Assembly: GCA_001770955.1 (NCBI GenBank)
Contig: MESL01000021.1
Coordinates: 35,534 to 99,533, forward strand
Origin: Burkholderiales bacterium RIFCSPLOWO2_12_FULL_65_40
GTDB lineage: Bacteria > Pseudomonadota > Gammaproteobacteria > Burkholderiales > Burkholderiaceae_C
DNA length: 64,000 nt
Reading direction: 5' to 3'
Positions 24,938 through 27,662 of the stretch are shown here, in pieces. Within the stretch, counting starts at the first letter, position 1, and every line of letters starts with the position of its first letter. The translations under genes and the position numbers were made by a program. The notes under the pieces were generated by a model. It saw nothing but the letters and a program-made list of their open reading frames with translations. It had not been told where the DNA came from and did not search any database.

Positions 24938-25396
24938 ATGGCCGCCCCCACCTTCGCGCTCTTCAAGTACCCGCACGGCGGGCGCCCGCTGACCAGCCCG
25001 GCGCGCCGCCGCTTCACCTATGCCAGTGCCACCATGGCGCTGCTGGCCACGGTGCTGGCGTTTCCAGCGGGCGCGCTGCTGTGGGTGCTGCCGCTGCTGG
25101 CGCGCTTGACTGCGGGCCGCTACCTGCAACTCGGACCGCGCTACCTGCTGTGCGGCGACAGCATCGTCTACTACGGTAACGTGCGGCGCTTGGTGCTCTC
25201 ACGCTCGAGCGGCACGCTGGAACTCTTTGGCGCCGATGGCCCGGTGCTGCGGCTTGAGCGCGACAAGTTCCCGACCAACGCACGCAAGCCTGACAAGATC
25301 ACCAGGAACAAGGCCACCAAGTTCGAGAAGGTGTCGGCCCGCATCATCGAACGGGTGCTCCAAGCGGCGCCCGGAACGCCGCTGGAGGACGTCTGA
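24938..25396 (+). CDS. Small membrane protein of unknown function, first gene of the radical SAM cassette
   Basis: A 152-residue protein with two closely spaced hydrophobic helices at about 28-63 (ATMALLATVLAFPAGALLWV and onward) in a hairpin. A soluble C-terminal part of about 85 residues has alternating strands (RYLLCGDSIVYYGNVRRLVL, SGTLELFGADGPVLRLE) that recall bacterial PH-like domains, though I cannot prove this. It ends 2 bases before the radical SAM gene, so the two are almost certainly co-expressed. No signal peptide is seen. It could anchor the enzyme or its product at the membrane; that is inference. Confidence 0.75.
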   Translation: MAAPTFALFKYPHGGRPLTSPARRRFTYASATMALLATVLAFPAGALLWVLPLLARLTAGRYLQLGPRYLLCGDSIVYYGNVRRLVLSRSSGTLELFGADGPVLRLERDKFPTNARKPDKITRNKATKFEKVSARIIERVLQAAPGTPLEDV

Positions 25397-25398
25397 GC

Positions 25399-27225
25399 AT
25401 GGACGCCACCAACCCCTTGGCACCGGCTTCCGGGCGCGCGATCCACCTGCTCTACGTGCCCACGCTGTGCTGCAACCTGAGCTGCAGCTACTGCTACCTG
25501 GGCAAGCAGACCAGCGAGGCCGCGCTCAAGCGCGATGCCGAACGCGCCGTGCACACGCTGCGCCACACGCTCGATGCGCTGCGCGATGCCGGGGTGCTGG
25601 CGTTCAACGTCTCGCTGCACGGCGGCGAGGTGACCACGCTGCCGCCCGATGTGCTCGATGCGCTGTTCGGCATGGTGCGCGCGCACTACCGTGAGCATTT
25701 CGACGCACTCAACGCGCTGGGGCACCGCAAGTCGGCGCCGCACATCAAGACCAACCTGTTCCGCTTCGCGCCGCTGATCGACCTGTTCGAGCGCCACAAG
25801 GTATCCATCAGCGCCAGCATCGACCTGCCACTGGCCCTGCACGAACGCCACCGCACCACGCGCGGCGGCACCGGCTGGCTGCCGCGCACGCTGGACAACA
25901 TCCGCCTGCTGGCGCGCTACCCGCATGCCAAGAAGATTTCCGCCACCCTCAGCAGCGAACATTTGCAGGACATGCAGGCACTGGTGGACGACATCTGGTT
26001 CATCCACCGCGAGCTGGGCTTCGACATGAACCAGTTCAACCTGATGTTCGCCTTCGGCTCCGAGCTCAACCGCGCCGCCAAGGGCGAGGCCGTGCTCACC
26101 CCGGCCACACCCGAGCAGCAGCAGCAGCTGTACGACACGCTGCACGCGGCCTTCATGGGCACCGAACTCGAAGAGGGCCTGCGCCGCCACTGGTTCGACG
26201 AGTTCACCCCCGGCTACTGCACCAACGCCGCCAACTGCGGCGAGCGCTTTTACCTGCTGCAGAGCGACGGCTCGGTGTATTCCTGTGTGCGCGGCCAGGG
26301 CATCCCGGAATTCCGCTACGGCAACGTGTTCGAGCAGCCCATCCTCGACATCCTGGACAACGGTGCGCGCCAGATCCGCCAGATCCACCAGGCGCATGGC
26401 TTCGACAGCGCCTGCCAGGGCTGCGGCCATCTCTCCACCTGCCACACCGGCTGCCCGGTGGTGAAGCACCAGAACCACAACGGCCGCTCCTACACCTGCG
26501 GCCTGCAAAAGCGCATCTACGCCGACCACCCGCTGACCTACCCCGCCGACCCACCCGACGCCCAGCACGACTACGCCCAGCAGTACCAGCTCGCCACGCA
26601 CCCCGGTCTGGCCTTCGCGCAACCCGCGTCACGGCCCGCTGCGCGCCGCCTGGTGCTGCCCAGCGACCTGGGCGATGAGAAGAACACCCTGCCCGCGCTC
26701 ATCGAGGCCGACCCGGTACTGCAGGCGCTGTTCGATGGCAGCGCCTTCATGCTCGAACTCAATGGCGAACCCATCGCGCTGGAATCGCAGTTGCTCAAAA
26801 CCCAGCGCAGCGTGCACACCCTGGTGCCTGGCGACCGCGTGCTGCTGCACCTGCGCCGCGACCTGCTGGAGCACCACTGCCCCGAGCCCGTGCGCAACAC
26901 CGTCTACCTGCAGATGTTGCGCGACACGCCCGTGGTCTATGGCGACGAACAGCGCACCAAGCAGGCCCATGTATTCACCTACCAGCTCTACGCCGACTTC
27001 CTGGAACCCAGCACGCTGCTGGGCGAGGCGTTTGCGCAGGTGGATCTGTCGGGCCTCATCGAGTTGCACCGAGCGCACTACCAGCGCGGCGTGCTCAACA
27101 ACCTGTTCGTGACCACCTTCTACCTGCGCGAGTACCACTACCAAAAGCAGAAGGCCAACGCCTTCTACCATGTGCAGACGGCCAATCTGCCGTTCCAGAA
27201 CTTCGAATTTCACTACCTGCCATGA
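25399..27225 (+). CDS. Radical SAM/SPASM enzyme with long C-terminal extension
   Basis: A 608-residue iron-sulfur enzyme. The radical SAM cluster motif C-X3-C-X2-C is CNLSCSYC (C25, C29, C32), followed by LHGGEVT. At about residues 270-385 a SPASM region carries auxiliary-cluster cysteines: C in GYCTNAANC, C in SVYSCVRG, then CQGCGHLSTCHTGC (C-X2-C-X5-C-X3-C) and a final C in SYTCGLQ. About 220 residues of unrecognised C-terminal sequence follow. SPASM enzymes commonly modify peptides or proteins. The stop overlaps the start of the poly-Asn gene by 4 bases (ATGA), which nominates that protein as substrate. The reaction is unknown. Confidence 0.88.
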   Translation: MDATNPLAPASGRAIHLLYVPTLCCNLSCSYCYLGKQTSEAALKRDAERAVHTLRHTLDALRDAGVLAFNVSLHGGEVTTLPPDVLDALFGMVRAHYREHFDALNALGHRKSAPHIKTNLFRFAPLIDLFERHKVSISASIDLPLALHERHRTTRGGTGWLPRTLDNIRLLARYPHAKKISATLSSEHLQDMQALVDDIWFIHRELGFDMNQFNLMFAFGSELNRAAKGEAVLTPATPEQQQQLYDTLHAAFMGTELEEGLRRHWFDEFTPGYCTNAANCGERFYLLQSDGSVYSCVRGQGIPEFRYGNVFEQPILDILDNGARQIRQIHQAHGFDSACQGCGHLSTCHTGCPVVKHQNHNGRSYTCGLQKRIYADHPLTYPADPPDAQHDYAQQYQLATHPGLAFAQPASRPAARRLVLPSDLGDEKNTLPALIEADPVLQALFDGSAFMLELNGEPIALESQLLKTQRSVHTLVPGDRVLLHLRRDLLEHHCPEPVRNTVYLQMLRDTPVVYGDEQRTKQAHVFTYQLYADFLEPSTLLGEAFAQVDLSGLIELHRAHYQRGVLNNLFVTTFYLREYHYQKQKANAFYHVQTANLPFQNFEFHYLP

Positions 27226-27662
27226 GCACCAACGACCTGCAGCGCACCGCCTACACCGTGGAATGCTTTCTGAACGCCCTGCGGCTGGAGGACAGCCCTG
27301 CGCGCACGCAGATCGAAGAACCCCTGGTGCGCTGGCTGGCCGATGGCGCGCGCGGCAAGCACGACCACCTGATCTATCAGGAAGGCCGCATCAGCTGCCA
27401 CAGCGGAGGGCGGGTCGTGCAGAGCCTGGACGTGCCGCAGGCGCGCCAGATCCAGACCCTGTGGTGCAACGGCGCCAAGCTCTCGGCCATCGACGGCGCC
27501 GCCTACAGCCGCAATGCCCAATTGGTGATGCTGGGCACGGCGGGGTTGTTTCTTACGTTGCCGGGCCAGCTCCCCGCCAAGGAACGGGACAAGAGCCGTA
27601 GCAACAACAACAACAACAACAACAACAACAACAACAATAACAATAACAATAACAACGGGTGA
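27222..27662 (+). CDS. Small protein with an 18-asparagine C-terminal tail; candidate substrate of the radical SAM enzyme
   Basis: A 146-residue protein with an acidic/neutral globular part (residues 1-~115) and a charged linker (PAKERDKSRS) before 18 consecutive Asn and a terminal Gly. There is no signal peptide. Its start overlaps the stop of the radical SAM/SPASM gene (ATGA), a mark of tight coupling. Homopolymeric or simple-repeat tails are seen in known radical SAM targets such as His-Xaa-Ser or Cys-rich repeat systems, so the tail is a plausible modification site. I do not recognise the family. The alternative is a partner subunit whose tail is a neutral microsatellite. Confidence 0.75.
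   Translation: MSTNDLQRTAYTVECFLNALRLEDSPARTQIEEPLVRWLADGARGKHDHLIYQEGRISCHSGGRVVQSLDVPQARQIQTLWCNGAKLSAIDGAAYSRNAQLVMLGTAGLFLTLPGQLPAKERDKSRSNNNNNNNNNNNNNNNNNNG
27603..27656 (+). repeat. AAC/AAT trinucleotide microsatellite encoding poly-Asn
   Basis: Eighteen in-frame Asn codons: eleven AAC, then AAT at codons 12, 14 and 16 among AAC. Being a trinucleotide run, slippage would change tail length without breaking the frame; the interspersed AAT codons would partly limit slippage. Confidence 0.95.

Follow-up and report, generated by a model that had tools for sequence, protein, structure and literature searches.

Can a radical SAM enzyme act on a bare run of asparagines? This question is raised by three closely packed genes in a stretch of 64,000 nucleotides from Burkholderiales bacterium RIFCSPLOWO2_12_FULL_65_40, which was analysed as a whole and is termed the window here. 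Radical SAM (rSAM)/SPASM enzymes introduce cross-links and oxidations into peptides, with Cys, aromatic, Lys, Ser or similar residues as partners. We know of no rSAM cross-link that Asn-only tracts would fit, and a family linked to C-terminal tracts of Asn alone would bring chemistry that is new to this class of enzymes. Since the enzyme and its presumed substrate are encoded by adjacent genes, such chemistry could be tested at once.

All three genes lie on the plus strand. According to the ORF calls, the gene for a small membrane protein of 152 aa (24938..25396) is followed, after a gap of 2 bases, by that for an rSAM/SPASM enzyme of 608 aa (25399..27225), which overlaps by 4 bases the gene for a small protein of 146 aa, the presumed substrate (27222..27662). 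These coordinates bear out the layout and spacing described in an earlier interpretation made from the letters of the DNA (the sequence-only reading), and the small protein indeed ends in 18 Asn and Gly (residues 128–146). This tract, the presumed modification site, is encoded by 15 AAC and three AAT codons together with the final Gly codon (27603..27659).

The enzyme contains the CX3CX2C motif (C25, C29 and C32) and the full SPASM signature CX2CX5CX3C (C339, C342, C348 and C352), both correctly recognised in that reading, as well as four further Cys residues (C274, C280, C296 and C367), and none of the eleven varies among the 14 relatives aligned. Its rSAM and SPASM domains span about residues 13–382 and display a partial TIM barrel plus a SPASM fold. 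The Pfam SPASM model (PF13186) gives 24.4 bits, above its cut-off of 21.5, and TIGR04085 also scores above its cut-off, while Radical_SAM (PF04055) reaches 23.5 bits, below its cut-off of 29.5. The extension that follows, for which about 220 residues had been claimed, comprises about 225 (about residues 383–608; 26545..27222, plus strand). It is kept in both the cassette and the phage members of the family described below, and carries the conserved motif REYHYxKQxxNAFYHxQxxNLPF. The neighbours of the enzyme in fold and profile comparisons are protein or peptide maturases, namely anSME, ChlB, CteB and SuiB, and, by profile, DynA, PapB and GrrM. Among the 25 matches listed out of 47, no NCBIfam system model reaches its cut-off on the window enzyme; TIGR04083, for example, gives 82.6 bits against a cut-off of 300. 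Other members of the family match the DynA, DarE, GrrM, PapB, HxsB and TIGR04083 systems, with a best E of 2e-27. The viral structures matched by the enzyme resemble generic rSAM enzymes, as judged by title and length. Identity with a defence system was considered and rejected, with no PADLOC match for five proteins.

Then, is the Asn tail a regular companion of the enzyme? Apart from those in phages, 22 loci of the family were collected, which belong to several proteobacterial groups, Geobacteraceae/Desulfobulbaceae and Campylobacterota. Those in the genus of the window are G000, G003, G015, G022, G023 and G025, and the others are L015–L023, L024, L027, L180, L181, L188, L189 and L190; L014 and L028 were left out as duplicates of G022 and G003. 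L024 was left out of the comparison because its contig ends within the enzyme gene. In all of the 21 testable loci, a small protein with an Asn run is encoded beside the enzyme, that is, an adjacent precursor with a constant target region, as looked for in RiPP-type systems. The tail is thus as regular a companion as had been proposed, and no cassette without it was encountered among these loci. Three of them (L188–L190, of which L189 is a close kin of L181) were found via the enzyme alone after the Asn rule had become clear, and all three fit.

Across the 21 cassettes, the small partner measures about 104–157 aa and its Asn run is 8–27 residues long, the run of L021 being broken by an assembly gap. 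A terminal Gly closes the small protein in 20 of the 21; in the exception, G023, the frame continues beyond 13 Asn to the end of the contig. Certain tails read NNNGNNNG or NNGNNG. In the alignment of 16 of the 21 small proteins, invariance is confined to six Asn columns and the final Gly; aligning homopolymers favours invariant Asn columns, and no other column competes with them. AAC and AAT codons are mixed in 14 of the 15 tails taken from the 21, and the remaining one is pure AAC. For the small protein of the window, a compact domain of three helices and six strands followed by a disordered tail is predicted, and the predicted model (pLDDT 75) has no PDB fold match at E 0.001. The beta and Trichlorobacter loci are arranged membrane-enzyme-small, the two gamma loci small-membrane-enzyme and the Campylobacterota loci enzyme-small-membrane. 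When the flanks were viewed by eye, no constant neighbour such as an RRE-type recognition domain, a protease or an exporter was seen. In Pseudoalteromonas luteoviolacea, a subtilase (Peptidase_S8 with P-domain) is encoded directly downstream of the enzyme (L022:10060-11937), and by eye none was noticed beside other cassettes.

Could such a run be a chance repeat? In the genus of the window, a run of eight Asn codons occurs in six of 26 genomes, which are the same six that have the enzyme (Fisher p 4.3e-6, with kinship ignored), and the cassette holds the sole run of this kind in each of the six. The small protein itself was found in six of 60 relatives, again the same enzyme-bearing genomes. 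For a further set of genomes, the cassette holds the sole run of eight Asn codons in 5/6, and the sixth, C. jejuni 414, has a phage-type enzyme and no such run (the seventh handle of the set, G450, is G022 again). As background, a run of eight Asn codons is present in 10 of 199 other genomes of the window's phylum, where the runs end no ORF of at least 60 aa in nine of nine genomes inspected out of the ten; the one left uninspected, G1109, has pure AAT runs. The overlap in the genus, the sole-run counts, the mixed codons and the background genomes together led us to reject a chance repeat. A run of 8–10 Asn was also observed in L197–L201 near the N-terminus of a conserved protein, which is unrelated to the cassette; it is DUF4167 in L197, and the proteins in L198–L201 are similar by sight.

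The enzyme family is rare. When 84,980 species' genomes were scanned with a five-row alignment as the query and the best 80 of at least 131 loci were taken, at least 15 belonged to the family (L014–L028), two from the genus of the window and 13 from elsewhere. The loci outside the genus include Rhodoferax, Propionivibrio, Uliginosibacterium, Trichlorobacter, Geobacter, Pseudoalteromonas, a Desulfobulbaceae MAG and Campylobacter jejuni. L014–L023 and L025–L028 match the family profile into the extension, L024 being cut by the contig end. The loci L029–L093 were rejected as hidden members, with no family-profile match into the extension bar a meaningless −0.1 bits in L092. The enzyme occurs in 3/399 genomes of the window's family (all three from one genus), 1/398 of its phylum (the window's own genome), 1/297 of the phylum of Trichlorobacter and 1/80 of the genus of the Pseudoalteromonas locus (in both cases the search centre itself); every count includes the genome on which the search was centred. 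On the same basis, the frequency is 7/249 for Campylobacterota, and 5/150 and 5/100 for one Campylobacterota family, with the same five genomes in both. Few relatives were found in plasmid and phage collections.

An enzyme occurring widely without the small protein would have spoken against the coupling proposed in the sequence-only reading. The enzyme does occur without it in phages, but there an Asn motif closes the protein encoded two places upstream. A Mu-like phage of Campylobacter coli encodes a relative of the enzyme (32% identity over 97% of the enzyme), and no poly-Asn small protein was found at this locus; two places upstream of the enzyme gene lies that of a tail fibre (PF12571, E 3.5e-40) ending GSTNNNNY. 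In 16/16 phage loci with the enzyme, many of which are near kin, the protein encoded at this position has an Asn motif at its end. The end is NNNNY in eight loci (L013, L025, L094–L098 and L100), GNNF in five (L026, L101, L103, L178 and L179), and CNNNNN, GNNS and NGNNNNNGNNNTK in L102, L182 and L183, respectively, where L099 was taken as a copy of L025, and L104/L117 as copies of L026. In phage CAM-P21, the enzyme is identical to that of L013 and the fibre ends GSTNNNNY. The upstream protein matches tail-fibre families in L013, L102 and L183, and has an N-terminal sequence that by sight is common to L026, L094, L095, L097, L098, L100, L101 and L178, while the protein in L096 is without its N-end. 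In L025, L103 and L179 it matches PHROGs of unknown function only, and in L182 the fibre match is weak; with no clear fibre match in these four of the 16, the role of the protein there rests on its position. The upstream proteins belong to several families, so that an Asn end is shared by proteins that are otherwise different. Therefore, the enzyme is coupled to a C-terminal Asn tract rather than to the small protein itself.

A phage control set was drawn via the neighbouring tail gene, independently of the enzyme. Eight of its 32 loci were dropped: four without a complete fibre, three whose contigs end before the enzyme site, and one with another ORF after the tail gene. The fibre has an Asn end in 8/8 loci with the enzyme, which in one case is a broken copy, and in 0/16 without it (Fisher p 1.4e-6, the lineages not being independent). 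A gene of 211 aa lies between fibre and enzyme in the same eight loci and in none without the enzyme, and a different gene, of 124 aa, takes its place in L183. Fibre, 211-aa gene and enzyme thus travel as a module, so that the loci are not independent, and few events may underlie the contrast. The enzyme gene is broken into a split ORF in L026/L104:7965-9757, where the upstream protein still ends GNNF, and is apparently shifted near its end in L182:2608-4365, where the upstream protein still ends GNNS. As intact loci also have GNNF, a loss of the motif in loci with a broken enzyme cannot be claimed. In the enzyme tree, one fully supported branch splits the cassette enzymes (18) from the phage enzymes (9), a split at which, as the tree program warns, long branches meet, while the letter make-up differs among rows. 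The Asn trait is found in both groups, and it is therefore probably a property of the enzyme family that is older than the choice of partner.

What does the membrane protein contribute? It had been described as having two helices. Its hydrophobic nature is confirmed in the window, where 19-residue windows above 1.6 start at residues 29–40, but there is a single such region, about residues 29–58, which corresponds to one or two helices. This is followed by a conserved soluble part, ERxKFPTNARKxxKIxxNKxxKF (9 relatives aligned), and none of nine members of this type has a Pfam match. Of the 21 cassettes, 19 have a gene for a membrane protein, and the contig ends on that side in the other two (L021 and L027). 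The window type is found at 12 loci (the six genus genomes and L015–L020), and a second, gamma/Campylobacterota type at seven (L022, L023, L180, L181 and L188–L190), of whose members two of seven match GIDE (best E 2.9e-5). Common ancestry of the two types was rejected, with no detectable similarity between them (hhalign probability 0.4%), and by sight neither type was seen in the phage modules. Consequently, the membrane protein is not supported as a constant part of the system; where present, it may anchor or export the product. In Uliginosibacterium, a second membrane gene (212 aa) lies between the usual one and the enzyme (L018:7352-7990); its product is by sight similar to the usual one and has no Pfam match.

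Several known systems resemble the window locus in part. For anSME (TIGR03942), the window enzyme gives 69.7 bits against a cut-off of 349.45. The anSME Asp that follows an auxiliary-cluster Cys, which we take to be catalytic, is replaced after C296 by Val in the window enzyme, Pro in gamma members and His in phage members; moreover, the window enzyme has the 225-residue extension and an Asn tract, not a sulfatase, beside it. DynA, DarE, GrrM, PapB and AmcB are, like the window system, rSAM/SPASM enzymes with an adjacent substrate, and DynA couples Trp to the C-beta of Asn. However, their models give 44 to 80 bits against cut-offs of 310 to 650 (DynA, 79.7 against 450), the cassette tracts are without an aromatic residue, and the partner is protein-sized. 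In the His-Xaa-Ser (HxsB) and other repeat-tail systems, the maturase gene also adjoins that of a small repeat-tail protein, but the HxsB model scores 50.7 bits against a cut-off of 370, the repeat here is Asn, and the His-Xaa-Ser system has two maturases where the window cassette has one. PHROG 1802 ('radical SAM domain-containing protein') is the same family, since it matches residues 20–605 of the window enzyme (E 1.7e-43) and the Campylobacter phage enzyme (E 6.4e-142); its description states no function and makes no link to Asn C-termini or cellular cassettes. The virulent Campylobacter phages CP220 and CPt10 have 11 and 12 rSAM proteins, respectively (PMC2853527), which may or may not be kin of the window family; neither phage was among the records that tblastn listed at E 1e-10 or E 1e-5. 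These proteins, like those in two other papers (PMC8743553; PMC2147049), are not described as members of the window system, and another Campylobacter phage paper reportedly mentions rSAM (PMC12398825). In the open-licence literature on rSAM enzymes with Asn-rich tails or tail fibres, no description of such a system was found, in agreement with the sequence-only reading, which knew of no poly-Asn rSAM system. The locus is a real and rare enzyme-substrate pairing and, within the literature searched, an undescribed one.

The pairing of the enzyme with an Asn-ended partner is strongly supported, and we consider it quite probable that the enzyme is a peptide-modifying rSAM/SPASM maturase whose substrate is the C-terminal Asn tract of the partner protein. 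From the sequences compared, we infer that the asparagines are chemically modified, and the chemistry and role might be as follows. In the cassettes, the folded domain of the small protein probably docks the enzyme, and the disordered Asn tail would enter the active site. In Campylobacterota phages, the partner would be the gene product two places upstream, mostly a Mu-type tail fibre, with the Asn motif at its distal C-terminus as the target. A 5'-deoxyadenosyl radical would abstract an Asn hydrogen, with C-beta as the most likely position, and the second electron would go to the SPASM clusters. The outcome would be oxidised or cross-linked asparagines, repeated along the tract; links from side-chain amide N to carbon are conceivable in a tract without aromatic or Cys residues. 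The product may be a stiffened, protease-resistant or reactive tip, on the fibre in phages and on the small protein in cells, where the latter is perhaps kept near the membrane by one of the two unrelated membrane partners. Against this speaks GNNF, the commonest of the short phage motifs (5/16), which has two Asn only, as does the poor fit of Asn-only tracts to any rSAM cross-link known to us.

The tract could instead be a docking tag, perhaps for the extension, with the chemistry taking place elsewhere, e.g. on the folded part of the small protein or fibre. A repetitive tract at the extreme end is what recognition tags can look like, and the extension is conserved along with it; however, the 16 small proteins have no invariant residue outside the Asn columns and Gly, and the phage partners, of several families, by eye share nothing else with them, so that no other common target is apparent and a mere tag is rather unlikely. 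It is improbable that the small protein serves the enzyme as a subunit or activator, with a small molecule, a lipid or the membrane protein as the substrate and the asparagines as a solubility tail: a membrane substrate is conceivable given the membrane protein in 19/21 cassettes (the other two are truncated at contig ends), but in the phage modules neither the small protein nor such a membrane partner is in view, and the Asn end recurs there on another protein.

Finally, slippage does occur, as the tract varies from 9 to 27 among close relatives, and one of 15 tails is pure AAC. Nevertheless, a functionless trinucleotide repeat arising from AAC/AAT slippage is very improbable, since the tract is kept in 21/21 loci across phyla, with mixed codons in 14/15 tails, a Gly end in 20/21 and regular NNNGNNNG variants, and since, of the 26 genus genomes, the 20 that lack the enzyme lack it too. 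We favour the tract as the substrate of the enzyme. The wider proposal that an undescribed family performs a new radical reaction on bare Asn tracts, and that phages use it on receptor-facing fibre tips, has in our estimate about an even chance of being right. If true, this would be the first case of a phage tail modified by a radical SAM enzyme, and it would establish a new class of Asn post-translational modification, in cells and viruses alike. The phage branch suggests a covalent modification on some tail fibres that would escape a view of host recognition built on sequence, and since virions can be purified, the idea could readily be tested.

The surroundings of the window cassette may also be mentioned. 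It is flanked on one side by ruvC (24357-24905, PF02075) and on the other by a gspC-like gene on the opposite strand (27691-28149, T2SSC match). Between the cassette and gspC, one genus relative has an rve-type transposase (L194:7533-8447) and another a DUF1800/DUF1501 pair (L193:6013-9621), and the gap between ruvC and gspC may be an insertion hotspot.
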